A stretch of 29,828 nt of DNA from a virus. Positions 12,566 to 28,117 of this stretch are shown piece after piece. The translations under genes and the position numbers were made by a program. How positions within the stretch are numbered: the first letter of the stretch is position 1; every line of letters begins with the position of its first letter. Where the stretch lies: IMG/VR virus record IMGVR_UViG_3300021962_010783, positions 1 to 29,828 of that record. The stretch is one strand, 5' to 3'. A model generated the notes under the pieces. It did not search any database and was not told where the DNA came from. It saw only the letters and a program-made list of their open reading frames with translations.

Positions 12566-13930
12566 CTATTTGGAGTTTTTTAGATTCTTTTTAAGCTCAA
12601 CTAAATCTGTTTTATACATATCAATTGGCTCAGTCTTTTTTACTATAACAAGTTCATCGGATTTAACTGCAACTTCAGTAAGCAGTTGTTCATACAGTTC
12701 TTTAGTTAATGAGCTAATTGCCATCGACAGTAGATAATTGTATGACTCGTTGACTAGATCAAATTTCAATTTCTCAAGTTCAGCAACGAGCTCAGCTTTA
12801 GGTCGATTGTTTATCTTTAGCTTGCCTTCGATTATCAACTTAATAAACTTTGCTCTATTTGACAAGAACGTCAATTCACGATTCAGTTTGTCAATTAGAT
12901 AGGCTTTACGCTTGTCATAATAACTCAATCTAAACTGTACAAAGTATTCGACTAATTCTGAAACTGATTCAAATATTTTGAGCTTACCATGTTCGTCCAA
13001 ACAGGTTAGGTTTTCAGTTTCGTTCTCTTGCATCTTAAGCAGAGAATCTAGTTTGCCCTTCTTAAGTAAATCAGCTAATGTATTTCTTGAAAACTTGAGA
13101 GTGTAATTTATTCCGCCTGAACAGTTATCATCATATGAATAGATTGTACCTTTTTCCAATAGGGAATTTAGGTGAGACTCATATTTTTGATAAGTGATAG
13201 ATGGTGGTAATTCTGAAATCTCGACAGTCGTTGTGTTTGCAACTTTGTACGAGCCGCTCATCACATACTGATTTGGATTACCAGTCGGCTTGACTTCGCC
13301 TGAGAAATCTTTCCACCATGGTACAAGAGTTGGGACCTTTTTTCCGGCTAAGACATTGAGACATGCATCGATTAAGTCAATCGGATTTCGGTTTAGAATG
13401 TTTGTCGCAAATCCAACTGCAATACCTGAAGATCCATTTAGCAAAACTGCTGGAATAATTGGTAAGAAGAAAGCCGGTTCAATTTGAGAACCTTCTTCAT
13501 GTCGAGATTCCAATAATTCAAAGTCCTTGTATAAGAGTCTAAAATTCTTGGTCGTTCTTGTTGAAATATAACGAGCCGCACCAGCTTCTGGCGAGCGTAG
13601 CGAACCAAATTGCCCTATCTCTTCAAGTAAAGGCAACGAATTCTTAAATGATTGAGCCATTCCAATGATGGCTGAATTGAGAGAACCGTCACCATGGTGG
13701 TAGTGAGCATCTGCTGCGACCTTACCACCTAATTGAAATATCTTTAATGGTTTCTCGGTGCCAGATTTCCAAACTTTATCTGAAATATAAATGATCTTAC
13801 GCTGAGTCGGTTTAAATCCATCAATCACTGATGGGATCGCTCGATTCTCAAGAGTATACATTCCATAGAGCGCATAGTCTTGATCTAGGTATTGTGTTAT
13901 TGATTTTCTTATAGTTGCTATTTTTGCCAT
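12566..13930 (-). CDS. 52: Type II DNA topoisomerase, medium (cleavage) subunit, T4 gp52-like
   Basis: 454 residues, close to T4 gp52 (about 440) and far shorter than cellular GyrA/ParC, because the C-terminal beta-pinwheel is missing. Conserved features: VIDGFKPTQRKIIY (36-49), HYHHGDGSL (76-84), and the catalytic tyrosine Tyr121 in GAARYISTR. The tower and coiled-coil regions follow to the C-terminus. It pairs with the large subunit encoded upstream to relax DNA and decatenate replication products. Unusually, a SulP transporter gene lies between the two, and the start overlaps its stop by 13 nt. Confidence 0.93.
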   Translation of the reverse strand: MAKIATIRKSITQYLDQDYALYGMYTLENRAIPSVIDGFKPTQRKIIYISDKVWKSGTEKPLKIFQLGGKVAADAHYHHGDGSLNSAIIGMAQSFKNSLPLLEEIGQFGSLRSPEAGAARYISTRTTKNFRLLYKDFELLESRHEEGSQIEPAFFLPIIPAVLLNGSSGIAVGFATNILNRNPIDLIDACLNVLAGKKVPTLVPWWKDFSGEVKPTGNPNQYVMSGSYKVANTTTVEISELPPSITYQKYESHLNSLLEKGTIYSYDDNCSGGINYTLKFSRNTLADLLKKGKLDSLLKMQENETENLTCLDEHGKLKIFESVSELVEYFVQFRLSYYDKRKAYLIDKLNRELTFLSNRAKFIKLIIEGKLKINNRPKAELVAELEKLKFDLVNESYNYLLSMAISSLTKELYEQLLTEVAVKSDELVIVKKTEPIDMYKTDLVELKKNLKNSK

Positions 13931-15033
13931 AGTGCGCTCTTTTTTATCGAATAGTAGAGTATTGTTCCAGCAATAACCCCTAACGCTAAGTTATGAGTTA
14001 CTAATGCTATGCTAGTAGTACCAAAAAGTACAATCATCTTGTATACGTTCAAGGTCTTTAGTGCTTGCCAATCGCCAGTTTGAATAACGACAACTACCAT
14101 AACTCCAATTAAGCCAGCAAGCGGAATGAGTTCAATCCATTTACCTAAAGTTAAGATGATAAGCGCTAAACCAAAAGCGGCCGCTAACGACGAGAGTCTA
14201 TGCTTTGCACCAGCAGCTAAGTTCAAATTCGTTTGTCCAATTAATACACAGCCTCCCATAGAATTGAATAAGCTACTGACTATATTACCTAGGCCTTGAG
14301 CAAAAGTTTCTTTCTTTTTACTACCTTCATTACCAACTGCAATTAGAGATTCAGTTAGGCCAGATATTGCAACACCAAATGAATATGGTAATACTGCAAG
14401 TATGGCAGACCAACTTAAAAGTGGCATGGTAAAAGTTGGCAAACTTGCTGAAACTGGGGAAATGTCTCCAACTGTCGGTAACATTAATGGGACTCCTAAT
14501 AGTATACCAATTGCTAAAGCTGATAAAGCTGGCGGAAAACTAAATCGAGTTATTGATTTCCACATAGCAATTGCAGCAAGGCTAATGACACCCAGTGTTG
14601 CAATTAATTCGAGAGTAGATGGCTTGCCGATATCTAAATAGTGTAGCTGACTGCTAAAGATCATTATCGCTAATGCAACTAGGAAACCTGACATAACCAG
14701 TTTCGGTATTTTATCAAATATTTGCCAAGCGCCGCTTATCCAAATAATTAATTGAATTAAGCCCGCGACCAAGACGCCAGTAAAAAGATATTCCATTCCA
14801 TGCGAATTAACTAGTGCCGCTAAGATTACAGCAGTTGCACCAGTTGCTCCACTAATTAATCCAGGTCTACCTCCAAAAATAGCGGTTGACAGTGCCATAA
14901 AGACAGCTGCCCATAGACCAACTTGCGGCGCTGCTCCAACTAATAGCGCAAATGAAATTGCTTCAGGTACAAGTGCAACTGAAATAGTTAGACCGGATAA
15001 TAACTCTTTTCGAGCTTGAGTAAAATTCATCAT
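13918..15033 (-). CDS. SulP-family anion transporter, no STAS domain
   Basis: 371 residues, almost entirely hydrophobic helices. The N-terminus has the SulP signature region (SGLTISVALVPEAISFALL, GAAPQVGLWAAV, SGATGATAVILAAL), typical of sulphate/bicarbonate/chloride carriers. Usual SulP proteins are about 500-600 residues with a cytoplasmic STAS domain; here the chain ends after the membrane core (about 11-12 helices), so control by STAS is absent. The start ATGATG overlaps the topoisomerase large-subunit TGA and the end overlaps the medium subunit, so it is tightly embedded in the operon. The substrate cannot be determined. A rare cargo for a phage. Confidence 0.88.
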   Translation of the reverse strand: MMNFTQARKELLSGLTISVALVPEAISFALLVGAAPQVGLWAAVFMALSTAIFGGRPGLISGATGATAVILAALVNSHGMEYLFTGVLVAGLIQLIIWISGAWQIFDKIPKLVMSGFLVALAIMIFSSQLHYLDIGKPSTLELIATLGVISLAAIAMWKSITRFSFPPALSALAIGILLGVPLMLPTVGDISPVSASLPTFTMPLLSWSAILAVLPYSFGVAISGLTESLIAVGNEGSKKKETFAQGLGNIVSSLFNSMGGCVLIGQTNLNLAAGAKHRLSSLAAAFGLALIILTLGKWIELIPLAGLIGVMVVVVIQTGDWQALKTLNVYKMIVLFGTTSIALVTHNLALGVIAGTILYYSIKKSALWQK

Positions 15034-18118: not shown

Positions 18119-19297
18119 TTAGTCCAAATTTAGGTCTGGGATTGCAGGTAAGCGATACTTCATAGTATTCAATAACTGAGAAACATTATTGATCTTAACG
18201 GTATCGTGCCAAAACGGAGTCTTGGTCTTTGCATTTAGGACTACACTCATATTGGATAGGCCAATTGCTCGTTGAATATCTCGTGGACTAGCTGCAATTG
18301 ATTTAGCTCTAAGTTCGCCGTCAATTTTCTTAATGATCATTGGATTTCTAAGGCCAACCATATTTACTTGCCAACCGCCTGGACGGCTAACTTCTCTAGC
18401 CCATTCAATCTCAAACAGATAGAGGCGACGACCGCCCTCTTGTTCTTTACCCAATAGAAAGACTAGGCCGCCTGGATAAATGCGATCTTCATTAACTGGC
18501 TTTTCGCCAACTCCTTCCGGTGAGGTGGAGTCTTCATCTGATTCAGCTTTTGGATCAGAATAAATTGCAGAATATGATTTTGAACCAGCATCAATTAATC
18601 TCTCAATCCAACCCTGATTACGTAATTGTTTGAAAACTAGATTTTCAACTGAGAACTCGCCAGTTTCAGCGAGCCCGTCTTTGCGAGCTTTCATGATCTT
18701 GGTTTTTAAAGCGCCAACTCTTTCAAGTAATTCTCTTGCTTCAAATTCGCTAGACCCATCCGCTAAATTCTTTTCAAGTTCTTCTATTTCAGTTATGTAA
18801 GCTTCAACTTTACGTTTAACATCCAATTCATCGATAGTTGGCTCGTTCCAAACTGGTTTCTTAATCCACTCGTTCTTCATTAACGAGAATAATCCTGATG
18901 ACACGTGGGGCTCATTCTCGTCCTGGGCATATAGTTCAACATCATGGTCTTTGATGATGACTGGGTGCCTCATATTCCATATAAAGCGCTGGCCGTCCAG
19001 TGCCTTCTTTACTAATTCAATATCGTCACCGATTGATTTAAAATCTAGGATAACATGGACATCTAGATCTGAATACTCAGTCCATGTATAATTTGCGATT
19101 GAGCCGGTTAACTGTACGTCAACGACCGGTACTGTCAATTGCAGACCCTCATAGAAATCTTGGGCAATAGCAAGCAATTTAGTTCTGACCATTGGGTCAA
19201 ATTCTTCGCCGGCCCAAAACTTTGGATTTAATTCTTCTTTGTAATAAGCTGATGACTCGGAAAGCCAGGTCTTTCTGGGCTGTACATAACTCTTCAT
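18119..19297 (-). CDS. Nucleotidyltransferase-like protein with N-terminal LxE tag
   Basis: 392 residues. The N-terminus MKSYVQPRKTWLSES fits a capsid-targeting peptide with a possible cleavage after LSE (residues 12-14). A nucleotidyltransferase pol-beta-type motif follows: TGSIANY (64-70) and SDLDVH (76-81), with Asp77 and Asp79 as metal ligands. Then comes ELYAQDENEPH and a helical region (about 140-215) with GEFSVENLVFKQLRN. This architecture recurs in T4-like phages to my knowledge. The rest of the chain (about 245-392) is unknown. The ATG is exactly 5 nt after a GATAAATA box, implying late expression. It may be packaged and injected; its target is unknown. Confidence 0.78.
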   Translation of the reverse strand: MKSYVQPRKTWLSESSAYYKEELNPKFWAGEEFDPMVRTKLLAIAQDFYEGLQLTVPVVDVQLTGSIANYTWTEYSDLDVHVILDFKSIGDDIELVKKALDGQRFIWNMRHPVIIKDHDVELYAQDENEPHVSSGLFSLMKNEWIKKPVWNEPTIDELDVKRKVEAYITEIEELEKNLADGSSEFEARELLERVGALKTKIMKARKDGLAETGEFSVENLVFKQLRNQGWIERLIDAGSKSYSAIYSDPKAESDEDSTSPEGVGEKPVNEDRIYPGGLVFLLGKEQEGGRRLYLFEIEWAREVSRPGGWQVNMVGLRNPMIIKKIDGELRAKSIAASPRDIQRAIGLSNMSVVLNAKTKTPFWHDTVKINNVSQLLNTMKYRLPAIPDLNLD

Positions 19298-19302
19298 AGA
19301 GT

Positions 19303-19310
19303 TATTTATC
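19303..19310 (-). promoter_or_regulatory. Late promoter box, leaderless geometry (nucleotidyltransferase)
   Basis: GATAAATA then ACTCT then ATG. The box overlaps the stop codon of the preceding 72-aa gene. The ACTCT spacer is identical to that before the tagged gene at 24.5 kb. Confidence 0.72.
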
Positions 19311-19527
19311 AGTCAAAGTTTACATCAAAGGGTTCGCCGTTAACATAAACTTCTTGGATATCTTTGCCCTGTCTGTGGATATGCAGGACATATCGATATG
19401 GATCTTTAATTTTATCGTACACTAATCGGGTTCCATCCCCCAATACGACAGTTACTTCATCTCCGCCTGGTTCAAGGCTTAATTTGTTTTTGCGATACTC
19501 GTCGGCGACTTGGATTCTTTTGCTCAT
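19309..19527 (-). CDS. Hypothetical protein, 72 aa
   Basis: A small soluble, beta-rich protein (DEVTVVLGDGTRLVYDK, YRYVLHIHRQGKDI) ending VNFD. A GTATAATA box lies 6 nt before its ATG. No family recognised. Its stop overlaps the late box of the nucleotidyltransferase gene. Confidence 0.65.
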   Translation of the reverse strand: MSKRIQVADEYRKNKLSLEPGGDEVTVVLGDGTRLVYDKIKDPYRYVLHIHRQGKDIQEVYVNGEPFDVNFD

Positions 19528-19533
19528 GGCTAT

Positions 19534-19541
19534 TATTATAC
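19534..19541 (-). promoter_or_regulatory. GTATAATA promoter-like box, class B
   Basis: GTATAATA then ATAGCC then ATG. The 12-nt stretch GTATAATAATAG is identical to that before the three-helix membrane protein at 25.7 kb. Confidence 0.5.
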
Positions 19542-19542
19542 A

Positions 19543-19755
19543 TTATTCGTTTATTAAGATTTCACAGTCGTCTAACTTACTGACTCCCAATCCCATAATC
19601 TTAATTGGAGTTTCGAATTGAGCCTTGACCCAATTGATTGCTGCATCTGGGGTTTTAGCACCGACTAATTTGACAAAGTCTTGTCGAGTGTTCCAAGCAG
19701 GCTTCCTAAATTCAGGATCTTCGTAGTGTAGGTAATAGACTGTATAACCTTGCAT
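19543..19755 (-). CDS. Hypothetical protein, 70 aa
   Basis: Small soluble protein: strand (YTVYYLHY), then a helix-rich middle (KTPDAAINWVKAQF), then a C-terminal strand (IKIMGLGV) ending ILINE. GTATATTA lies 5 nt before the ATG. No family recognised. Confidence 0.62.
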   Translation of the reverse strand: MQGYTVYYLHYEDPEFRKPAWNTRQDFVKLVGAKTPDAAINWVKAQFETPIKIMGLGVSKLDDCEILINE

Positions 19756-19760
19756 GAGGT

Positions 19761-19768
19761 TAATATAC
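19761..19768 (-). promoter_or_regulatory. GTATATTA promoter-like box, class B
   Basis: GTATATTA then ACCTC then ATG of the 70-aa gene, preceded by TTTG. Confidence 0.42.
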
Positions 19769-19776
19769 CAAAGAAA

Positions 19777-20169
19777 TTAGCTTTCGTATATGGTGCCGTC
19801 GATCTTGCCCCAGTCTCTGAGCAATTCGCCAGCTTTCGAATTGGCCTCGTTCTCGTGGTCAGAACCAGTTTCGCCATTTAGTTTTTCGCCACGTTCAAGC
19901 TGGTGAGCATGAACTAGCTCATGAGCAAGAGAACGCAACCAGTCAGCCTTTGTTCTTTTACCACGAAGAACAAAGATTCGATAACTGCCAGGTTGAAAGT
20001 ATGCCATTGATCTCTTCTCGACTGCAAATGAATGGTCATCTCCAAATTCTATAGTTGGACACTCTTTAATTCCAAGTTGCTCGCATGCCCATTTGATAAA
20101 AGGCTCTTCACCTTCAATTGAAATAGTATTAAATGATTCAAATAGCTTAATATATTTAGTAGTTGTCAT
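19777..20169 (-). CDS. Zincin-type metallopeptidase-like protein with N-terminal LxE tag
   Basis: 130 residues from the start giving MTTTKYIKLFESF; an extra Met codon lies directly before it, and the longer in-frame extension only reads through the acidic tail of the overlapping upstream gene. The N-terminus carries the tag with LFE (9-11). HELVHAHQ (83-90) is the HExxH zinc helix, and DHENEAN (104-110) offers the third ligand. It overlaps the upstream acidic-tailed gene by about 14 nt. A tagged, possibly capsid-packaged peptidase; the substrate is unknown. Confidence 0.72.
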   Translation of the reverse strand: MTTTKYIKLFESFNTISIEGEEPFIKWACEQLGIKECPTIEFGDDHSFAVEKRSMAYFQPGSYRIFVLRGKRTKADWLRSLAHELVHAHQLERGEKLNGETGSDHENEANSKAGELLRDWGKIDGTIYES

Positions 20170-20836
20170 CATCGTCTTCGTCATTTTCGTTTTCATCCTC
20201 GTCATCCTCGTCTTCTTCGTCTTCGGGAAACCTTTCGTCTAGCATGGCTTGAATAGTTGACTCAGGTATAGCACTCTCATCCATCCACTCAGTCGCCCAA
20301 TCGCCAATGTCATCGGCGAGCCTTTCAATTTCTTGAGGCCCATTGTCGTTGAAGTTTAGGTAAGATGCGCTATAGAATTCGGTATTTGAAGTTTCATCAT
20401 AGCTAAAGGAAACATCCTTTGAATCATATGAAACGCTAGTTGTTACATTAAACCCGGTAATGTACTCACCCTCAATCTCAATAAAATCTGCAAGATTCTG
20501 AACTAGGCCGAGGTCAACCATTCTTTTTAATTCGTCTTGCGTGTTGCCCTCAATCTCTAGAAAGATTGGCCTGATTTGCATATCTTGCTCCATCCACATT
20601 CGAATTCCATCGCCATACACTTCTAAATCCATCCAATCGTTGACGCTTGCACTATAATTAAATTGAATTGTGCCAGTTTGATAAGCTCCAACACTAGTAT
20701 TATTCATCGCCATATTGATTGCATCAGCGAGTCGCATAACAATATCAAGCTGATGTTCAGTTAATTTGATCTCTTCTTTGGGATCTTTCTCAAAAGATTC
20801 GCTGACAAATTGTTCAAACAGTTTGATGTGCTTCAT
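20156..20836 (-). CDS. LxE-tagged protein with acidic C-terminal tail
   Basis: 226 residues starting MKHIKLFEQFVSES, a tag with LFE (6-8) and a second possible site at VSE. The body is a mixed alpha/beta domain with TQDELKRMVDLGLVQ, a short helix motif seen in other proteins of this window. The last about 25 residues are almost pure Asp/Glu/Asn (DEEDEDDEDENENDEDDDD), encoded by an imperfect triplet repeat. Such tails can act as DNA mimics or bind basic proteins. AATAAATA lies exactly 5 nt before the ATG. Function unknown. Confidence 0.72.
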   Translation of the reverse strand: MKHIKLFEQFVSESFEKDPKEEIKLTEHQLDIVMRLADAINMAMNNTSVGAYQTGTIQFNYSASVNDWMDLEVYGDGIRMWMEQDMQIRPIFLEIEGNTQDELKRMVDLGLVQNLADFIEIEGEYITGFNVTTSVSYDSKDVSFSYDETSNTEFYSASYLNFNDNGPQEIERLADDIGDWATEWMDESAIPESTIQAMLDERFPEDEEDEDDEDENENDEDDDDNY

Positions 20837-20841
20837 ACTGT

Positions 20842-20849
20842 TATTTATT
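20842..20849 (-). promoter_or_regulatory. Late promoter box, leaderless geometry (acidic-tail gene)
   Basis: AATAAATA then ACAGT then ATG, in the short gap after the lysozyme gene. First base differs from the T4 consensus. Confidence 0.62.
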
Positions 20850-20851
20850 TT

Positions 20852-21652
20852 TTAAGCCGCGTTTACTATTTTTGATAGAGTTTGTGCTCGATTGCCAACT
20901 TGGCTTGCCCAACTAGATCTTAACATTTCAGCTGAAGCTTTAGCATAGTCGTATGTTGAAATATATCGAAGAAAGTTTTTGAACTCGCTTAGTCCTTGCT
21001 TGCCCAGATTGAAAGCCATTTCAGTTAATACACCCTTTATTGAATCAGGCAGTGAAGTCCAATTGGGCACAAGACTTTGTGCTTGTTCATAAGCTGCTTT
21101 TAAGTCCTGCATTAGCAGCGTAGATATCTGCGAATCAGTTAGCGCAGCTTTACCTGATTTGACTTGTTGATAATTAGCGCCGATTGAACTAATTCGCTGA
21201 AGTGAATCCTGTCTTGATAGATTAAAGCCGACTCCAATCGTTGGAATACCTTGACTATCTAGATATACTTTAGATTTAACTCCCTCATGTTGTTTAACTC
21301 TAGGTAGAATGTCAGCAATAATCTTTTCAGGTGGAGTAACTGGCAATGCAGTTAGGGCCAAAACATCCTTTGCTCCAATTCGGTCAATGTGGATATTAAT
21401 AGTTTCAGCATAATCATCATCAAAATAACCAAGTTCGCCCTTAAGTACGGCATCAATTGTTTTGTATGCATATTTGTCGCTTCCGGACATTAATGCATTA
21501 ATTTGAACAACTGTCTGCCTATCTGGAATCGCTTGAATAGCTGAGGTTAATTCAATTTCGTCTGTGCCTGGACCAGCGGCTGCTGCGTCTATACGATCCG
21601 CAAGTTGGCTGATTGACCATGACTCAAATAATAAAATACTCCTATTCTTCAT
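20852..21652 (-). CDS. GH24 T4-type lysozyme with N-terminal LxE tag and annexin-like segment
   Basis: 266 residues, using the ATG (sixth codon of the longest frame) that lies exactly 5 nt after a GATAAATA box; it gives MKNRSILLFESW with LFE. Residues about 25-95 contain AAGPGTDEIELTSAI and DKYAYKTIDAVL, resembling an annexin half-repeat (GxGTDE). The C-terminal domain (about 115-266) is GH24: Glu123, Asp132 and Thr138 in HEG...YLD...PTIGVGF have the same spacing as T4 lysozyme Glu11/Asp20/Thr26. It should cleave peptidoglycan. The tag suggests it is carried in the capsid rather than serving only in lysis. Confidence 0.88.
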   Translation of the reverse strand: MKNRSILLFESWSISQLADRIDAAAAGPGTDEIELTSAIQAIPDRQTVVQINALMSGSDKYAYKTIDAVLKGELGYFDDDYAETINIHIDRIGAKDVLALTALPVTPPEKIIADILPRVKQHEGVKSKVYLDSQGIPTIGVGFNLSRQDSLQRISSIGANYQQVKSGKAALTDSQISTLLMQDLKAAYEQAQSLVPNWTSLPDSIKGVLTEMAFNLGKQGLSEFKNFLRYISTYDYAKASAEMLRSSWASQVGNRAQTLSKIVNAA

Positions 21653-21657
21653 AGGAT

Positions 21658-21665
21658 TATTTATC
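21658..21665 (-). promoter_or_regulatory. Late promoter box, leaderless geometry (lysozyme)
   Basis: GATAAATA then ATCCT then ATG. It overlaps the TGA of the 35-aa ORF upstream and decides the lysozyme start, excluding a start five codons earlier that would lie within the box. Confidence 0.72.
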
Positions 21666-21771
21666 AACCCCAGCCTCGGCCTGAATGTTCCATGCTCTTA
21701 AGTCGCTGTTCCTCAAGCCAAGTAAGAAACTCGAGTACTTTGTTTAATCTTTCTTTGATTTCGTTAAACAT
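21664..21771 (-). CDS. Small helical ORF, 35 aa
   Basis: Starts MFNEIKERLNKVLEFLTW, an amphipathic helix, then Lys/Glu-rich, ending GRGWG. It fills the gap upstream of the lysozyme gene and overlaps the tiny zinc-ribbon ORF by 28 nt in another frame. CATATTTG, close to TAnnTTTG, lies 6 nt before its ATG. Plausible but unproven. Confidence 0.4.
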   Translation of the reverse strand: MFNEIKERLNKVLEFLTWLEEQRLKSMEHSGRGWG

Positions 21772-21848
21772 AATATACAAATATGAGTGGTTCCTCCTAA
21801 AATTGGGATAGGCCGGTTGCAGACTTTGCACGAACTAATTGAATCCAT
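21744..21848 (-). CDS. Tiny zinc-ribbon-like protein, 34 aa
   Basis: Starts MDSISSCKVCNRPIPIL; Cys7, Cys10, Cys24 and Cys27 form a CxxC-x13-CxxC zinc-ribbon pattern, with a Lys-rich end (TKSKKD). A perfect TATAAATA box precedes the ATG by 6 nt. Four well-placed Cys in 34 residues plus that promoter argue for a real gene despite its size. It could bind nucleic acid or a polymerase subunit; this is inference. Confidence 0.6.
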   Translation of the reverse strand: MDSISSCKVCNRPIPILGGTTHICILCLTKSKKD

Positions 21849-21854
21849 ATAGGA

Positions 21855-21862
21855 TATTTATA
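21855..21862 (-). promoter_or_regulatory. Late promoter box, perfect TATAAATA (zinc-ribbon ORF)
   Basis: TATAAATA then TCCTAT then ATG, overlapping the stop codon of the thioesterase gene. It matches the T4 late box at all 8 positions. Confidence 0.7.
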
Positions 21863-22271
21863 GTTTGGAAGGCGGCAGTAATTGAGTATTCATGTGAGTA
21901 TCTTTGACACTCTTTGAAATTGGAATTGGGCTACCATCTTCATCGATTCTGACAAAGACAATCTTTGTGTGTAGCACAGCCTCTTCATCGTGAGTGTACA
22001 CATTGAAAGCCCGTGCCTCAACGTGAAAAGTTGCAGAGGTGTTGCCAATTTTGACAAGTTCGCCATAGATCTTGACCAATGATCCTTCTTTTGCAGGCTT
22101 TTTAAAGACACATTCATCGATTCGAATCGTCACCATACGTCGATTGTGACAGACTTCCATTGCATAGGCAGCAGCTGCTGCGTCTAACCATGCAAGTAGT
22201 TTACCTCCAAACAAGTTGCCGTGAAAACCTAGATCTGATTTTTTAACTGGGTGTGTTGCTAATAATTCCAT
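21858..22271 (-). CDS. Hotdog-fold acyl-CoA thioesterase
   Basis: 137 residues, single hotdog domain. HGNLFGGKLLAWLDAAAA (17-34) is the helix region of YciA/BFIT-type acyl-CoA hydrolases, with Asn19 and Asp30 as candidate catalytic residues, followed by five strands (MVTIRIDECVF, LVKIYGELVKIG, ATFHVEARAFNV, VLHTKIVFVRI). It would hydrolyse acyl-CoA in the cytoplasm, possibly to alter membrane lipid or acyl pools during infection. Its start overlaps the upstream DNA glycosylase gene by 29 nt. An uncommon phage gene. Confidence 0.88.
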   Translation of the reverse strand: MELLATHPVKKSDLGFHGNLFGGKLLAWLDAAAAAYAMEVCHNRRMVTIRIDECVFKKPAKEGSLVKIYGELVKIGNTSATFHVEARAFNVYTHDEEAVLHTKIVFVRIDEDGSPIPISKSVKDTHMNTQLLPPSKL

Positions 22272-22695
22272 TTATTGTTCTATGATATTCTAAATATTGT
22301 ACTAAAACTTTGTCAGTTGCATCCGTCGTAAAGTCTTTTAATTGAAAAATCTTCCAAGAGTCTATTGCATATTTGCCAATACCTGGCATTTTAGCCAGAG
22401 TTTGGACTGGGATCCCGGTTGGATTTGGCCATTCGCTTAGAGCTTGCAACCAAGCTTCACTAAATGCTCTAATTGATTTTGCACGCCGATTATAAAAACC
22501 CAAAGGCCTAATCGCTTCAACTATTTGAGATTGCTCTGCGCCAACGACTGCGAGAGCATTCGGCCATCTATCAAAAAAAAGTGGACGACATGCATCCACC
22601 TGTTTCCAACTAGTTTGATTGAGCATTTGACAAACGACTAACATTTGCCATGGATCTTCAACTAATTCCTCTTGTCGTGTTCTTACTGGCTGCAT
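22243..22695 (-). CDS. HhH-GPD DNA glycosylase, MBD4-like
   Basis: 150 residues. The order of motifs resembles the MBD4 catalytic domain: DPWQMLVVCQMLNQTSWKQV (14-33), IRPLGFYNRRAKSI (62-75), the helix-hairpin-helix MPGIGKYAIDSWKIF (103-117) with catalytic Asp112, and TDATDKVLVQYLEYH (124-138). The lysine of bifunctional EndoIII-type enzymes is absent at the usual site, so it is probably a monofunctional glycosylase. MBD4 removes T or U from mismatches with G, which arise from deaminated cytosine or 5-methylcytosine. No iron-sulphur Cys cluster is present. It could repair phage DNA or attack host DNA. Confidence 0.8.
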   Translation of the reverse strand: MQPVRTRQEELVEDPWQMLVVCQMLNQTSWKQVDACRPLFFDRWPNALAVVGAEQSQIVEAIRPLGFYNRRAKSIRAFSEAWLQALSEWPNPTGIPVQTLAKMPGIGKYAIDSWKIFQLKDFTTDATDKVLVQYLEYHRTINGIISNTPS

Positions 22696-23054
22696 TATGG
22701 CATGTGCTTACGCAAATACTCTAGATGTTTTTGAGTCGCGGCAACCTTTAGGTGCCTAATTAATTTCTTTTTGGCAATCCAATATCTCCAAAATAATGGA
22801 TTGAATGGATTAAGCCAAATGGACATTGGTACCGTCCATTGAATTCGACCGTCGATATAGGCTCCATTATAGTTTAGCGTGAGCGCATACACCTTACGTA
22901 GCCCAGCCGGTGATTTATATTCAGGGCTCTTGAATTCTAACCATGAATATCCAGCCGCGCCACACGATTCCATTGTCCAATTATCGTAATCTGTTTCCAT
23001 TGAAACAATCATGCTCAGTGCATAGGTTGAATCAACTAATTTTCTGTTTGTCAT
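22695..23054 (-). CDS. Hypothetical protein, 119 aa
   Basis: Soluble protein with aromatic-rich stretches (DYDNWTMESCGAAGYSWLEF, YIDGRIQWTVPMSIWLNP) and a basic C-terminus (KKKLIRHLKVAATQKHLEYLRKHMP). The YIDGRIQWTVP core looks conserved-family-like, but I do not recognise the family. The stop overlaps the glycosylase start (TAATG), so the two are coupled. Confidence 0.65.
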   Translation of the reverse strand: MTNRKLVDSTYALSMIVSMETDYDNWTMESCGAAGYSWLEFKSPEYKSPAGLRKVYALTLNYNGAYIDGRIQWTVPMSIWLNPFNPLFWRYWIAKKKLIRHLKVAATQKHLEYLRKHMP

Positions 23055-23097
23055 GTGTCGATGTTTAATAAAATAATACTGAGATTGTCGATTCGGT

Positions 23098-23241
23098 TTA
23101 CTCAGAGGGTTTGCTTGAAATTAGACCCATTTCCGTAAGCCTACGTAAATCTTCTTCAGTTAAGATAACTTCAGATAAACCCAATTCAAGTATTCGAATT
23201 AGTTCGTCATCTGATAAATTTGAATTGACTACTTCTGCCAT
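23098..23241 (-). CDS. Small helical ORF with LTEEDLRRLTEMGL motif, 47 aa
   Basis: Starts MAEVVNSNLSDDELIRI and contains two helix-type repeats, SDDELIRILELGLSE and TEEDLRRLTEMGLIS, related to a motif in four other proteins here. Its ATG overlaps the stop of the upstream 138-aa gene (TAATG), which supports translation. Unknown function, perhaps a protein-interaction module. Confidence 0.58.
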   Translation of the reverse strand: MAEVVNSNLSDDELIRILELGLSEVILTEEDLRRLTEMGLISSKPSE

Positions 23242-23657
23242 TATTGACACTGTTCTATTAATCGGTTAACTTCAGCCATGACGCTCTCTGCGTTTGGCCA
23301 ACACTTTAAAGAATCGCCATAGTGTCGAGTATCAAAACCTATTACATAATCGTCAGGTAAAACCCGACTACGATCTATCTCTGGCCAATCTAGCTTTTCG
23401 GCAAATGTTGCAAAGGTTAGGCCCCCATGCACTGACACTGGAATATCTTCATACTCCATACCCCACCAACGATGACCAGCTGGCAGGCAAACATATCCAT
23501 TACCCCAACCTCTTTCATTAAACATTGTTTGAACCAAGCCAAGCGAGAGACTTTCAAGCTCCTCATGCAGTTTGCTCTCTTTGACAAACCCATAAATCGG
23601 TGTCAAGCCAAGAGATCGTAATCGCTTGATTTCAACTTCAGTTAACGCTGAATCCAT
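23241..23657 (-). CDS. Conserved phage-type protein with VHGGLTF motif
   Basis: 138 residues. The N-terminus has LTEVEIKRLRSLGL, the shared short helix motif. The body has GWGNGYVCLPAGHRWWG, YEDIPVSVHGGLTFA and DDYVIGFDTRHYGD, a pattern I recall from an uncharacterised family found in many phages and bacteria (GNGYVxLPxGH, VHGGLT, GFDTxHxGD). Its chemical role is unknown. It overlaps the downstream small ORF and the upstream gene. Confidence 0.68.
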   Translation of the reverse strand: MDSALTEVEIKRLRSLGLTPIYGFVKESKLHEELESLSLGLVQTMFNERGWGNGYVCLPAGHRWWGMEYEDIPVSVHGGLTFATFAEKLDWPEIDRSRVLPDDYVIGFDTRHYGDSLKCWPNAESVMAEVNRLIEQCQ

Positions 23658-24025
23658 GAGTCTAGTTTAGTTAAGCCATTTACACTCTTGACCCAATCAA
23701 CTGCCTCTTTGAAAGTTGAGAAATAATACTTAGCAAACTGGCCATCGACAAACTGTAGTCGAACTTCAGCTTTACACATCACAGTATCTCCAACAATATC
23801 GTATCGATCGCTATTTTCCTTCAAGAAATCCCAGTGATATGTGAATTCTTTTGTATCATGGTCCCAATATCGGTGGTCACCGACCATTCTTTCCTGTAGT
23901 TCAAGAGCTAGCCCAAACCACTTGGTGACATTACGTTCAGGCCTGATGTAAAAACGTTCGCTGACGTGTTCCTTTGTGATCTCACATGAGACTACATGTG
24001 CAGGATTTAAAAATTTAATCGTCAT
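23642..24025 (-). CDS. Hypothetical protein, 127 aa
   Basis: The ATG giving MTIKFLNPAHVV was chosen because the upstream 28-aa peptide ends with TGA overlapping it (ATGA); the longer frame begins at TTG. Mixed alpha/beta, with CEITKEHVSERFYIRPERN near the N-terminus and a C-terminal segment YYFSTFKEAVDWVKSVNG resembling a ligand-binding strand-helix. No family recognised. Confidence 0.62.
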   Translation of the reverse strand: MTIKFLNPAHVVSCEITKEHVSERFYIRPERNVTKWFGLALELQERMVGDHRYWDHDTKEFTYHWDFLKENSDRYDIVGDTVMCKAEVRLQFVDGQFAKYYFSTFKEAVDWVKSVNGLTKLDSWIQR

Positions 24026-24108
24026 ATCCAATATGAAATTAATTGCCAAAAGCCAATACCGGCCAAAAAATAAACAAGGTTATTCAACCATTTAGGGTAG
24101 TTTTCCAT
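24022..24108 (-). CDS. Tiny single-pass membrane peptide, 28 aa
   Basis: Starts MENYPKWLNNLVYFLAGIG and is nearly all one transmembrane helix ending SYWI. Its TGA overlaps the next ATG (ATGA), which is the best support for real translation. Similar in style to the 34-aa peptides elsewhere in the window. Function unknown. Confidence 0.5.
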   Translation of the reverse strand: MENYPKWLNNLVYFLAGIGFWQLISYWI

Positions 24109-24134
24109 AGGGTTAATTTACCCAATTTGGAAGA

Positions 24135-24539
24135 TTATCGGCCGCCTCTGGCCTTTAGATCAGCGATTTGATTCTCAGTAAAACCGAAACGTCGTAGAGC
24201 TCTATAAAAAGGTTCAAATCCTGGGCCACCATATGTATACCAAACTGCCTTTGCTCGACGAACTAATTTTTCAACGTCAGTTATCAGCTTTGCCATCTTT
24301 TCGGCTTCGCTTGGCCAAGGCTCTCCATTTTCCTGACGTTTGCCACGGCTCACAGTTAAATTGCGAGCTCGCATTATGTCCTTTGCCTCTGGACTTTCAT
24401 AACGAATTAATGAAGTATATCGACGATTCTCCTGTTCAGTTGGTTCAGGATTAAGACCAAGATCTGCCATGCGATCTCTCTCATCCCAACTGAAACCGTC
24501 ATTAGATTCAAATACTCTCCATGATTTAATGTACTTCAT
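24135..24539 (-). CDS. LxE-type-tagged unknown protein with RMADLGL motif
   Basis: 134 residues starting MKYIKSWRVFESND; VFE at 9-11 is a possible processing site. Immediately after comes SWDERDRMADLGLNP, related to SLEEINRMAEAGLMT in the tagged protein at 27.1-28.0 kb, so the two share their first about 35 residues. The remainder is helical and basic (MRARNLTVSRGKRQ, VEKLVRRAKAVW, FYRALRRFGFTENQIADL). Perfect TATAAATA lies exactly 5 nt before the ATG. Probably a late, packaged protein; function unknown. Confidence 0.7.
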   Translation of the reverse strand: MKYIKSWRVFESNDGFSWDERDRMADLGLNPEPTEQENRRYTSLIRYESPEAKDIMRARNLTVSRGKRQENGEPWPSEAEKMAKLITDVEKLVRRAKAVWYTYGGPGFEPFYRALRRFGFTENQIADLKARGGR

Positions 24540-24544
24540 AGAGT

Positions 24545-24552
24545 TATTTATA
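24545..24552 (-). promoter_or_regulatory. Late promoter box, perfect TATAAATA, leaderless geometry
   Basis: TATAAATA then ACTCT then ATG. Perfect match to the T4 late box; spacer identical to that before the nucleotidyltransferase gene. Confidence 0.75.
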
Positions 24553-24559
24553 GGAGAGC

Positions 24560-24706
24560 CTATTCGCTCTCAACTAAAAATTCATCAACGTCAAATAGAT
24601 TGAAGTCGTCCGCTAGTTCAAGCAGCACATGAGTTTCTCGATCAGATTTTGCTTGTTTGAGTTTAATTTTAATCCATTGAGATAGAGCAACTTGGTCAAT
24701 ATTCAT
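24560..24706 (-). CDS. Hypothetical small protein, 48 aa
   Basis: Starting at the ATG 10 nt after the upstream stop gives MNIDQVALSQWIKIKLK; helical and rich in Leu/Asp/Glu, ending EFLVESE. The longer reading frame overlaps the upstream gene without an ATG start. No family recognised. Confidence 0.52.
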   Translation of the reverse strand: MNIDQVALSQWIKIKLKQAKSDRETHVLLELADDFNLFDVDEFLVESE

Positions 24707-24716
24707 AATGTCAAAT

Positions 24717-25217
24717 TTAAGAAAATTCAGTTGCTGACGAGACTCTAAGTCCGTCAATTATCAAATCATCATAACGTTCGTTGTCTAACCAGAACATACC
24801 ATGGCCTTTGGCTCTTTGGGTTTTTCGGTATTCTTCATTCACCACTAAACCTTCAGGCTGACCCCATTCAAGCGCCATCTTAATAAACTTCTCAACATCC
24901 CATTCATCGCCGTATTCGTCCACAACTCTACCTGACCGAATGAATGCGAGTAATTCCTCTTTATTTGAATAGTGTTTGTTCTTGTGAAAGTTCCAACAGA
25001 ATTTCCAACCTCCACTACGTTTACCTAAATGAATTGCGGTGTCCTCAACAAATTCGTCCCATGGACTTTGATATTCCCAATCACCGACTTGAATTGATCT
25101 GAATGCTCGTTCAATCTCGCCTGGTTCCATGTCTAATTTTTCAAGTCGCTGTTGCAATCTGACTTTACGGTCAGTCATTTCATCTACTGTCGGTATTCGG
25201 TAATAATTTGTTCCCAT
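24717..25217 (-). CDS. MGTNYY-family conserved protein
   Basis: 166 residues. It begins with the distinctive MGTNYY, followed by a central IHLGKRSGGWKFCWNFH and a later VVDEYGDEWDVEKF, a set of motifs I recognise from a widespread uncharacterised phage/bacterial family (MGTNYY ... HIGKSSxGWxF). No Cys-rich zinc ribbon is present, unlike some members. Function unknown. Confidence 0.72.
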   Translation of the reverse strand: MGTNYYRIPTVDEMTDRKVRLQQRLEKLDMEPGEIERAFRSIQVGDWEYQSPWDEFVEDTAIHLGKRSGGWKFCWNFHKNKHYSNKEELLAFIRSGRVVDEYGDEWDVEKFIKMALEWGQPEGLVVNEEYRKTQRAKGHGMFWLDNERYDDLIIDGLRVSSATEFS

Positions 25218-25219
25218 GA

Positions 25220-25441
25220 TTATCTGTGCTTATTAATTGTAATGAATTCGACTGGTGCTAAGTTATCCAATTCAATTTGTCGAAATTCTCTAACTAGATG
25301 GTGGACTGCAAGCTCAAGGCGATCGACTGAGCCAGCTTCATTTAGATTAACCATTTCTCCAGATAATCGGATTTGATTAGCAACAATAGTATTCCGATCG
25401 TGATCGATCTTTTTAACTATTATTTCGTATTGAGTTGTCAT
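25220..25441 (-). CDS. Hypothetical protein, 73 aa
   Basis: A strand-turn-strand N-terminus (QYEIIVKKIDHDRNTIVANQ) followed by a helix (VDRLELAVHHLVREFRQIEL) and a C-terminal strand. Its start overlaps the upstream membrane gene by 4 nt (ATGA). No family recognised. Confidence 0.62.
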   Translation of the reverse strand: MTTQYEIIVKKIDHDRNTIVANQIRLSGEMVNLNEAGSVDRLELAVHHLVREFRQIELDNLAPVEFITINKHR

Positions 25442-25713
25442 AGAAAATTATGTTGAGACAGCCATAGCGCAATCACGCTGCCAGTAACTCCACCGGCAAC
25501 ATAGCCTGCCCATTGATGAATTGAATCAGTGGATGACGCAATCTTTTTAATTACGAAATATCCCAGAGAAGCAATCATGATGTCTGTGATGATAACTGAG
25601 CTATAGTTATAGGTAACTACTCCTCGCTGGTTAATTGTCACCAGAAAATACGAGGACATTTGTATCACAAAGAAGAGTGCAAAGCCTTTGGCTCGACTTT
25701 TAAGTTTTTCCAT
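25438..25713 (-). CDS. Three-helix membrane protein, 91 aa
   Basis: A basic N-terminus (MEKLKSRAKG) and three hydrophobic helices (about 10-27, 39-55 and 68-86). A GTATAATA box lies 7 nt before the ATG, and a hairpin region is just upstream. Small multi-pass phage membrane proteins include holins and superinfection-exclusion factors; nothing here tells which. Confidence 0.65.
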   Translation of the reverse strand: MEKLKSRAKGFALFFVIQMSSYFLVTINQRGVVTYNYSSVIITDIMIASLGYFVIKKIASSTDSIHQWAGYVAGGVTGSVIALWLSQHNFL

Positions 25714-25720
25714 AGACTAT

Positions 25721-25728
25721 TATTATAC
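25721..25728 (-). promoter_or_regulatory. GTATAATA promoter-like box, class B
   Basis: GTATAATA then ATAGTCT then ATG, sharing a 12-nt core with the box before the 72-aa gene at 19.5 kb. Confidence 0.5.
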
Positions 25729-25751
25729 TATAAAAGCCTGGAAAGGGCAAA

Positions 25752-25792
25752 GCCTAATTAAACTTTAGTAAAAGTTAGGCAGTTAGCTAACT
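25752..25792 (-). terminator. Hairpin region after beta-barrel gene, possible terminator
   Basis: Two inverted repeats lie in the gap downstream of the barrel gene: the palindrome AGTTAGCTAACT, and arms GCCTAA/TTAGGC enclosing a smaller CTTT/AAAG pair. The T-tract is poor, so termination is uncertain; an RNA-processing or stabilising stem is also possible. Confidence 0.4.
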
Positions 25793-25797
25793 ACTCA

Positions 25798-26664
25798 TTA
25801 AAAGCCAGTTCCGACTGCAAATAGAATTGGATTACTCTTTTTAAAACCAGTATTAGATTTATCGATTGTACTATTAACTCGAATACTACTATTTAGAATA
25901 AAATTCTTTCCTACTTTCCAATCTAACTGTACACCATAATATGCATCCAGATTAAAATCTGCTAGATATGAAATATTAAGAGTGCCATCTGTAAAGCTTC
26001 GATGAATATCACTAACCAAAACCAATTGTGGAGAAACTGTAACTCGATTCATTTGAATTGGATACGCCCAAATTACCATTGCGCGGGTAATTAACTGTTT
26101 TGATGGAGGCATTATTGGATAGATGTTTGCGACCCAATTACCCAAAGAATCTACCACATATTCGCCTTGCCATGGGCCTTGCCACTCGCCCCACCAGGTT
26201 TGAGAGGCGGTTAAGTTATAACCAAAGTTTCCAAACCTCCTGGTTTTAAAGAGATCAATAATAGACAGGTTAAGATTTTTTTGAAATGTAAAATCAAATG
26301 CGCCAATTGCCTGTAGAGTAGTTTTTCGAGTAGAGGTCTTTCGGGTTATGGCCCAACCTAGTCCATAATATTTCCAGCTTGGATTTATTGATACTAGCGC
26401 TGAATTGGTCCATGTACCACTAGTTGATGCTTTGCTAATTGCCAAGTTAAGGGTCGTTGAAACCTTTCGACCAACAACTCCAAGTGATAGGTCTGACGTA
26501 TTGAGTACATCCTTTGAAAAATCAATATAGGATTGAGTTGTGCCTAAGTTATTCCATTGAGAATTAAATTCAAATAGTTCCTGTGGAGTAAGCTTAACTG
26601 TGTCTTGTGCAGTTGCGATAAACCAGGTTAGGCCAAATACCGTTAATAATATTAGTTTTTTCAT
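25798..26664 (-). CDS. Outer-membrane beta-barrel protein
   Basis: 288 residues. Signal peptide about 1-19 (ending FIATAQ). The mature chain is composed of alternating amphipathic strands with many Trp/Tyr/Asn residues (WWGEWQGPWQGEY, VSPQLVLVSDI, DAYYGVQLDW) and ends with GTGF, a terminal Phe as in outer-membrane barrels recognised by BamA. It resembles in style the barrel domain of the Gly/Ser-linker protein at 4.2-5.8 kb. It has no obvious CsgG-type partner here. It could alter receptors on the infected cell. Confidence 0.75.
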   Translation of the reverse strand: MKKLILLTVFGLTWFIATAQDTVKLTPQELFEFNSQWNNLGTTQSYIDFSKDVLNTSDLSLGVVGRKVSTTLNLAISKASTSGTWTNSALVSINPSWKYYGLGWAITRKTSTRKTTLQAIGAFDFTFQKNLNLSIIDLFKTRRFGNFGYNLTASQTWWGEWQGPWQGEYVVDSLGNWVANIYPIMPPSKQLITRAMVIWAYPIQMNRVTVSPQLVLVSDIHRSFTDGTLNISYLADFNLDAYYGVQLDWKVGKNFILNSSIRVNSTIDKSNTGFKKSNPILFAVGTGF

Positions 26665-26668
26665 AAAT

Positions 26669-26676
26669 TATTATAA
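26669..26676 (-). promoter_or_regulatory. Weak TTATAATA box before barrel gene
   Basis: TTATAATA then ATTT then ATG. Similar to class B boxes, but without the leading GT and with short spacing. Confidence 0.3.
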
Positions 26677-26700
26677 AAGTCTAACCTGGTAAAAACTTAA

Positions 26701-27114
26701 TTAAACTTTAATTTTAGTAAACGTTATGCCCTTTACTGAATACTCAGCTGGGCCGTTGATTAAGTTGGAGAGTAGAGTCTTAACTTCATTCGCCGGTACG
26801 CTAAAATCTTTGACACCACCAGTAACGTATCGACCAAAGGTTAGAGAATTATCTTCCTCTTTTTTGAGGTATTTGAAATTAATATCTGGAAATGGATCAG
26901 TGAATGACGCTTGTATACCAGTTAGTGCATAGATAAAGGTTTTGCCACTTGGTGTAACGATTACTATTTGATTAAAAATCTTGTCAGCCGTTCTCTTTTT
27001 AACAGTAACCTTTGGCGATGGATAATTAATTACGCCACTTGAATCAGCTACACTAAAGTCGATCATCTCAACTTCTTCATTTAGCCATTGTGTAAAACTT
27101 TTAAAGCCATTCAT
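26701..27114 (-). CDS. LxE-tagged small protein
   Basis: 137 residues starting MNGFKSFTQWLNEEVEM, with LNE (11-13) as a possible processing site, in the style of T4 internal-protein tags. The rest is mainly beta strand (VKVTVKKRTADKIFNQIVIV-type region, TFIYALTGIQ, FGRYVTGGVKDF) with one helix (EVKTLLSNLING). It overlaps the upstream tagged gene by 4 nt (ATGA), so the two are co-expressed. Function unknown. Confidence 0.65.
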   Translation of the reverse strand: MNGFKSFTQWLNEEVEMIDFSVADSSGVINYPSPKVTVKKRTADKIFNQIVIVTPSGKTFIYALTGIQASFTDPFPDINFKYLKKEEDNSLTFGRYVTGGVKDFSVPANEVKTLLSNLINGPAEYSVKGITFTKIKV

Positions 27115-28046
27115 CGTTGTGTGATTGTTTTTGATAAGGCCGTATCGACCAAGCCTTGGTCAATTAATTTTCGCCATAAATCAATTTTACGAGCGGCCCA
27201 ACTAGAAACTTCAATGGGTGAGGCTAACCAGAATTTAACACCATCCGGTAAACCATCAGTCAACACCTTATCGAGCAATTCGTTGTAATAATTTTCAGCT
27301 CCCCAAAGAGGCAAGCTTGGGAATCTGCGTTGAATAATTTGGAATCTCTGTGCCAATTGTTTAGCTGAACCACCGCTTGCTAGAAATTGCAAATATCGTT
27401 CAAGTACCCATTTGTGATCTTTGAATTTAGGCTCCAAGAATTCTCTAATCTCGGCAATCACTGCCTCTTTTGCTCTAGTTTGAGCTACAGTCTTGCGGCT
27501 CGGCACAAATCGTTCTTCAATTGCCCATCGCTCATTGAGCTCCTGCATTGCACCTCTATAAAAACTAAGCCCGCCGCCTGGAGCCTTACGTAGAATAACT
27601 TGCAATCGATCGCCAATATTGTGTCGCGCATAACCAGTTGCTTCATAGAAGATAAGTTGTTCGGATTGGCGGTATTGTTGTGGGTCTGTTGAGTATTGCC
27701 AAAGGTTAGCTCGTTCAGAATCAGTGTATTGAATTTCTCGACTCCAGACCAAGGTCGCATTTGCTAATTGCTGTACTGTGCTGGTTGGAGTCCAACCGGC
27801 CTTGAAAAAGGCTTCGGCTTCTGGTGTGTGAATTGCCTCAATCGCAGGTAGCGAACTTAACAGGGCTTTGCCGCGGTCTGACCATGGATTGCTCTCACCA
27901 GCTTCGCGTAAGATTTGCTTGATTACTGTACGAGTTGCCTCAATCTTTTCTGCACCAGTCATAAGCCCAGCCTCGGCCATTCGATTAATTTCTTCGAGAC
28001 TCCAGCCAGTTGATTCAAATAGACTATATGACTTAAGGTACTTCAT
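27111..28046 (-). CDS. Large LxE-tagged unknown protein with RMAEAGL motif
   Basis: 311 residues starting MKYLKSYSLFESTG (LFE at 9-11), then SLEEINRMAEAGLMT, paralogous over this stretch to the tagged 134-aa protein at 24.1-24.5 kb. The rest is helical with many Arg/Gln/Trp; candidate features include LQVILRKAPGGGLSFYRGAM (about 150-170) and WRKLIDQGLVD near the C-terminus. No known catalytic motif is seen. A TATAATAT box lies 5 nt before the ATG, and a GATAAATA box lies 64 nt upstream of it. Probably packaged; function unknown. Confidence 0.68.
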   Translation of the reverse strand: MKYLKSYSLFESTGWSLEEINRMAEAGLMTGAEKIEATRTVIKQILREAGESNPWSDRGKALLSSLPAIEAIHTPEAEAFFKAGWTPTSTVQQLANATLVWSREIQYTDSERANLWQYSTDPQQYRQSEQLIFYEATGYARHNIGDRLQVILRKAPGGGLSFYRGAMQELNERWAIEERFVPSRKTVAQTRAKEAVIAEIREFLEPKFKDHKWVLERYLQFLASGGSAKQLAQRFQIIQRRFPSLPLWGAENYYNELLDKVLTDGLPDGVKFWLASPIEVSSWAARKIDLWRKLIDQGLVDTALSKTITQR

Positions 28047-28060: not shown

Positions 28061-28109
28061 ACACGCGACTGGCGTTTGGATTACTCCGCTAATTGTTTTT
28101 GTTCAGAGT

Positions 28110-28117
28110 TATTTATC
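28110..28117 (-). promoter_or_regulatory. Distal or orphan late box GATAAATA
   Basis: GATAAATAACTCT is identical to the nucleotidyltransferase promoter, but GAA stands where its ATG would be. It would give the 311-aa gene a leader of about 58 nt. It lies beside a weak AAAGG/CCTTT hairpin after the upstream gene. Confidence 0.55.

Follow-up and report, generated by a model that had tools for sequence, protein, structure and literature searches.

Short N-terminal tags on seven phage proteins probably mark a T4-type capsid-targeting system, possibly of unusually large scale

The 29,828-base fragment of IMGVR_UViG_3300021962_010783 analyzed here (the window) is the whole of the record examined for this phage and lacks capsid genes. 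On its minus strand, between 18119 and 28046, lie seven genes whose otherwise unrelated products share a short N-terminal peptide, or tag, ending in a hydrophobic residue, any residue, and Glu. The T4 prohead protease gp21 cleaves after (L/I)xE; in the tags the hydrophobic residue may also be F, V, or W. All seven N-termini were located where a preliminary description had placed them, and they are considered here as candidate capsid-targeting propeptides of the T4 type.

The nucleotidyltransferase-like protein (392 amino acids, 18119..19297) begins with MKSYVQPRKTWLSE↓S (19256-19297; the arrow marks the presumed cut) and matches PF01909 at 22 bits (cut-off 21) and phrog_36119 at 1e-36. Its orthologs carry WLSE↓S, WIAE↓S, FINE↓G, FLTE↓G, or LFE↓D directly before the same domain; the tags have diverged, and most end in xE at the same boundary. 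A tag of such kind is not plain in the homologs of Molly and Lak. In the predicted structure (predicted local distance difference test [pLDDT] of 71), residues 1-18 score below 50. No PDB match was found at E<=0.001, and the best PDB rows (AAD(9), CdnD, and CdnE, E of 4e-3) agree with the Pfam class and are silent on the substrate. The next gene (19777..20169) encodes a zincin-like metallopeptidase with DUF6782 and M78 matches that are both below cut-off. Its tag is real, and orthologs at four loci (L001-L004) retain TTKYIKLFES; the start, however, is probably the in-frame ATG at 20169, giving MTTTKYIKLFE↓S (20137-20169) rather than the TKYIKLFESF first reported. A similar correction applies to the protein with an acidic C terminus (226 amino acids, 20156..20836), whose tag, MKHIKLFEQFVSE↓S at 20798-20836, is likewise real. 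The conserved site is VSE↓SF, at residue 13 (INE↓SF in relatives), and not LFE, at residue 8; its orthologs read MKHIKLFEQFINE↓SF and MKYLHKFTTFINE↓SF. The T4-type lysozyme (266 amino acids, 20852..21652; PF00959, 3.7e-13) begins with MKNRSILLFE↓S (21623-21652), and in orthologs the end of the tag, LLFE↓S, becomes LLFE↓A or WINE↓A.

The remaining three proteins have no assigned function. One of 134 amino acids (24135..24539) starts with MKYIKSWRVFE↓S (24507-24539), which is MKYLKSWRVFE↓S in its L003 ortholog; Pfam and PHROG searches with it give no match. Another, of 137 amino acids (26701..27114), whose gene overlaps the upstream gene by 4 nt, starts with MNGFKSFTQWLNE↓E (27076-27114), and a homolog with 31% identity in the related genome G005 starts with MWVKLFENWLRE↓D. 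The third, of 311 amino acids (27111..28046), starts with MKYLKSYSLFE↓S (28014-28046). Its L004 ortholog, 41% identical, retains LFES at residues 9-12, the remaining tag being mostly different. The predicted structure of the 311-residue protein (pLDDT of 72, medium confidence) has no PDB fold match at E<=0.001. An assignment as an ADP-ribosyltransferase, raised by an FYRG motif, was rejected: the L004 ortholog does not conserve the RG, and no PDB match reaches that threshold. No relatives of the 134- and 311-residue proteins were found among phages; the viral_contigs search gave one locus for the former, on the contig of L001, and none for the latter, and the homologs in L003/L004 and G002 were found by tblastn.

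The criterion originally applied, an early hydrophobic-x-E, does not by itself distinguish these proteins, whereas the full tag does exceed chance. Among the 39 open reading frames (ORFs) scored in the window, called from the first ATG by a simple script, the pattern M-x(4-13)-[LFWVI]-x-E matches 11, with 11.6 expected from internal Met positions. As the bare rule is at chance level there, it provides no evidence in the window and was rejected as such, while the same pattern is enriched in the distant relatives W01 (LR756501, 735 kb), W02 (LR745206, 635 kb), and G009. The full tag comprises a Lys-rich start and aromatic residues followed by [LIVFW]-x-E-[S/A/N]. An unsupervised two-component motif model, trained on the ORF starts of W01, W02, and G009 only, found two flavors of it, K-rich ... 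[IFL][NK]E and K[HY]IKxYKxFE↓S, and was then applied to the window, which lies outside the training set, and to all other genomes. Chance expectations were taken from internal Met positions and from shuffles. In the window, four of 39 ORFs score P>0.9 (0.0 expected from internal Met and 0.3 from shuffles), all within the seven: the acidic and 311-residue proteins (P=1.0 each), the 134-residue protein (P=0.999), and the lysozyme (P=0.94). At P>0.5 there are five, again all within the seven, the 137-residue protein scoring 0.58. Two of the seven escape the model, the nucleotidyltransferase and the zincin (the start of the latter having been placed by the script at an upstream ATG); the tags of these two rest on their orthologs. 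A stricter regular expression, written post hoc with the sequences already seen, matches 6 of 39 window ORFs (0.7 expected), 21 of 940 in W01 (1.8), and 39 of 879 in W02 (2.2). Across 995 ORFs from the window and five relatives, [LFWVI]-x-E-type motifs peak at residues 6-15, where the bins hold 8.5 and 13.4 per 1,000 positions compared to 1.3-7.9 in other bins. The seven N-termini are real and not due to chance.

Among the orthologs compared, the end of the tag is its most constrained part. In orthologs of the window proteins, the hydrophobic-x-E is kept directly before the conserved domain while other tag residues turn over, and the E and S codons differ synonymously, with changes between GAG and GAA. 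A MAFFT alignment of 48 tagged representatives from near relatives gives the consensus MxxxKxFxxFxNE, with almost no conservation after it. When the tags were removed from 515 tagged proteins, the remainders fell into 372 BLASTP clusters, 311 of them singletons; within single genomes, there are 143 clusters for W01 and 169 for W02. We also note an RLxxLGL-like segment about 10-20 residues past the tag in otherwise unrelated proteins, in the window at 24135-24539, 27111-28046, and 23241-23657 and several times in G001. By a pattern written post hoc, it occurs in 7 of 150 tagged proteins (P>0.5) and 2 of 922 others in the near contigs, and it is perhaps SHOCT-like (match E of 0.87).

Such tags extend to most of the relatives. 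At P>0.9, with the internal-Met expectation in parentheses, the model finds 16 of 92 ORFs in G001 (0.3), 14 of 174 in G002 (1.3), 10 of 103 in G003 (0.3), 12 of 270 in G004 (1.6), 13 of 149 in G005 (0.6), 13 of 158 in G006 (0.9), and 7 of 87 in G007 (0.8). The cultured Chryseobacterium phage MA9V-1 has 10 of 253 (2.0 expected), Lak-B5, of which 260 of 544 kb was covered, has 11 of 283 (1.9-3.6 expected), and Molly, with 2 of 187 (1.1 expected), has few or no such tags. The largest counts come from the genomes on which the model was trained and are therefore in-sample, false positives included: 176 of 940 in W01 (8.6 expected from internal Met and 11.9 from shuffles), 186 of 879 in W02 (7.0 and 15.2), and 62 of 228 in G009 (1.5 and 4.2). 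Of the last, 24 belong to one family of tagged paralogs, many in tandem, which looks like an amplified cargo family; the genes start at 61424-68101 and 183146-191717 (L120 and L126) and also at 831 and 1502 (L117), and the proteins begin with MKHIKPYKIFESxSPNFPTTREEVIEVC or close to it. The false-positive rate is roughly known. In the first 50 kb each of the background genomes crAss001 and phi14:2, 1 of 45 and 2 of 60 ORFs match, so that 2-3%, above the internal-Met control, serves as a cautious figure. The tagged sets hold likely false positives, among them topoisomerase, helicase, and protease and, in the W set, also tRNA synthetase and polyphosphate kinase. A Pfam census separates tagged from untagged sets weakly, with 22 families for the near tagged set (48 of 50 representatives scanned), 69 for the W01/W02 tagged set (140 of 168 representatives), and 93 for the W01/W02 untagged set (140 of 539 proteins). 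In our judgement, each megaphage truly has anywhere from tens to about 150-160 tagged proteins; in the largest relatives, the total may exceed a hundred.

The gp21-like prohead protease that such a system would require was found in relatives, whereas the window fragment has no match. The S77 protease family PF03420, which recovers the T4 enzyme at 4e-113 as a positive control, matches 9 of 19 related records, 5 of them over the curated cut-off. In G005, G006, W01, and W02, the protease forms the N-terminal part of an ORF of 663-807 amino acids whose remainder repeats Y-S-E-Y-[LIV]-A-E. The protease-linked region has 8-16 [LIV][AGS]E sites in five genomes, with 0.8-1.4 expected by composition; in G004, where the first ATG lies inside the protease ORF, only the portion after it was counted. 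MA9V-1 has a fusion of 1,347 amino acids with 15 [LIVF]NE[SAG] sites, compared to 0.43 expected. The fusion ORFs lie at 10109-12097 of L047 (G005, with tandem repeats) and, in MA9V-1, at 126501-130544 of the record (L186). The protease-fused region may well be the scaffold, in which case relatives, though not the window, show a scaffold core with multiple putative cleavage sites. The same holds for the capsid protein, as a matching site at the propeptide boundary is seen in relatives only. A gp23-like protein was found in 10 of 14 records, and 9 of the 10 have [ILM][NH]E↓[SAND], mostly (I/L/M)NE, where by comparison with T4 the propeptide is presumed to end: LNE↓A, INE↓S, INE↓A, INE↓N in three, MNE↓N, IHE↓N, and LNE↓D, with Molly ambiguous. 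The presumed capsid protein of MA9V-1, identified by its position, carries FINE↓A and FLNE↓S. Adjoining the capsid gene is a small protein, K-rich and repetitive, whose start is tag-like and which resembles an internal or core protein, at 7992-8342 of L047 (G005) and at 159054-159413 of the G004 record.

Tagged genes are also associated with an upstream box that resembles the T4 late promoter TATAAATA. In the window, TAAATAA precedes four of the seven tagged genes compared to 4 of the 32 other ORFs (p of 0.02). On the minus strand, it lies 4 nt before the start codon of the nucleotidyltransferase (19302..19308), acidic-tail (20841..20847), lysozyme (21657..21663), and 134-residue (24544..24550) genes; a further copy (28109..28115) is 62 nt before the 311-residue gene. 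In the near contigs, 39 of 89 tagged ORFs (P>0.9) have it within 45 nt upstream, compared to 115 of 842 untagged ORFs (P<0.1; p of 1e-10). The box in W01 and W02 is TAATATATA, found at 46 of 176 tagged versus 49 of 620 untagged ORFs in W01 (p of 1e-9) and at 66 of 186 versus 51 of 570 in W02 (p of 6e-16). Five promoter patterns were tried per group, and the two given here are those with the strongest association in their group. The distance from box to ATG is bimodal, either 4-5 nt or about 16-26 nt, and in W01, the 5-nt class comprises 16 of 176 tagged and 3 of 620 untagged ORFs. A box 4-5 nt from the ATG implies leaderless late mRNAs, and by their boxes, the tagged genes would be expressed late. 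TAAATAA is also found upstream of a gene at 7336-9261, whose product has a cohesin domain and a secretion-system C-terminal sorting domain (PF00963 and PF18962), and of a plus-strand gene at 9783-10604 for a peptidoglycan-binding and GH19 protein that, unlike the lysozyme at 20852-21652, scores as untagged (P=0.013). Separately, a membrane protein of the sulfate permease family (PF00916, 3e-35) is encoded at 13918-15033.

Several results weigh against reading the tags as capsid-targeting propeptides. Neither a PF03420 match nor, among the proteins scanned, a capsid protein is present in the window, a fragment of 29.8 kb. PF03420 was also not matched in G001, G002, G003, G007, and G009, which are tagged and are all fragments or of unclear completeness, although G009 does hold a gp23-like gene, and the protease matches of W01-W04 do not reach the curated cut-off. 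The model matches plainly non-cargo proteins, such as the topoisomerase subunit of G004-G007 and the protease ORF itself. The T4 control is only partly good: two internal proteins with MKTYQEFIAE starts score 0.82-0.83, under 0.9, while the 2 of 238 T4 ORFs with P>0.9 are neither internal proteins nor known to be cargo. No tag is present on the zincin homologs of G001 and G002, and the association with the box is absent in G009. Finally, no virion proteomics for this lineage was found, the MA9V-1 paper being the only one searched for it (PMC10537231); there, a sodium dodecyl sulfate-polyacrylamide gel is given and the term "mass spectrometry" is absent from the main text.

Other explanations have to be set against these data. 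Were the tags functionless, their likeness due either to chance in AT-rich gene starts rich in Lys codons or to recombination that had spread a cassette of promoter and start, the chance-level matching of the bare rule in the window would be expected, as would the often fixed spacing of 4-5 nt between box and ATG, as in a copied cassette. However, the window, scored by a model trained elsewhere, passes the internal-Met and shuffle controls, and orthologs retain the E and the hydrophobic residue even where the other tag positions have changed, with synonymous differences between codons; this explanation is already disfavored, and we consider it highly improbable. Scarcely more probable is that the peptide is a different address, directing proteins to a membrane, a phage compartment, or secretion. 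Lys-rich, partly amphipathic N-termini do, in general, also serve such uses, but here no part of the tag varies less among the orthologs compared than its hydrophobic-x-E end, and similar sites are found both in the capsid protein and, as tandem copies, in the scaffold-like region joined to the protease. The long hydrophobic core of a signal peptide was not seen by eye, no signal-peptide program having been run.

A more substantial alternative, although still an unlikely one, is that the tag does target the prohead and is cleaved, yet the proteins stay in the capsid for head assembly or DNA condensation and are not injected effectors. The K-rich protein beside the capsid gene in G004 and G005 is core-protein-like, as this would have it, and ejection is here a matter of inference. 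Against it, lysozyme, metallopeptidase-like, and nucleotidyltransferase-like proteins make an odd set for head structure, and the predominance of singleton clusters is what effectors rather than assembly proteins would give, although the comparison spans distant genomes.

We regard the tags as very probably T4-type capsid-targeting propeptides, a reading well supported by the shared tag, its conserved end, the protease of the relatives, the sites in their capsid proteins and protease fusions, and the enrichment of the late-promoter-like box. Under such a mechanism, proteins made late would bind the prohead scaffold through the tag of 10-14 residues, and the gp21-like protease would cut after hydrophobic-x-E, at the same time removing the capsid protein propeptide and shredding the scaffold. 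The mature cargo would remain in the head with the DNA and probably be ejected into the next host. Late timing, binding to the scaffold, cleavage, packaging, ejection, and cargo function are all deduced from sequence, as is the proposal, made in the preliminary description, that the tagged set enters the head, is injected, and serves as effectors of host takeover.

In the accounts cited, T4 internal proteins IPI to IPIII and Alt have an N-terminal propeptide of 10-20 residues that gp21 takes off, the enzyme being active on gp23, gp24, and core proteins as well, and the diverse cargo has only the targeting sequence in common (PMC5694885, PMC3012670, PMC7411985). Whereas four ejected proteins are described there, the relatives studied here have about ten to perhaps 150 candidates. 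They further differ from T4 in having protease and scaffold-like region as one ORF with tandem sites and in favoring NE↓S/A/N and FE↓S at the cleavage site. SPN3US and phiKZ head-internal proteins are also reported to be cut by the prohead protease and then ejected (PMC5694885, PMC7411985), and about 50 head proteins are given for SPN3US. However, most propeptides described there exceed 100 residues, and the SPN3US motif is AxE, while the tags here are short and T4-like, the residue two before the E being hydrophobic. In phage P1, a signal within the N-terminal 30 residues is reported to direct the defense protein DarB to the head (PMC9024508), which makes a second known case of capsid targeting. 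The bS21-encoding freshwater Bacteroidetes phages (up to 331 kb) were compared by description only, and the description available mentions neither tags nor internal cargo. A literature search of titles and abstract starts, with few subscription journals, did not find such tags in this lineage.

For the relatives of 635-735 kb, a bolder proposal can be made, to which we give somewhat less than even weight: about one-sixth of genes, in more than 100 unrelated families, would be capsid-tagged, often by a modular cassette of late box, start codon, and tag. The head would then deliver a whole proteome at infection, and a gene captured behind the cassette would become cargo. The tag offers a means, from sequence alone, to list proteins that giant uncultured phages probably bring into their hosts and that standard annotation leaves mostly as unknown. 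If this is true, many hypothetical proteins would become candidate injected effectors, for instance in anti-defense or takeover, and the contents of huge capsids besides DNA would become directly testable.

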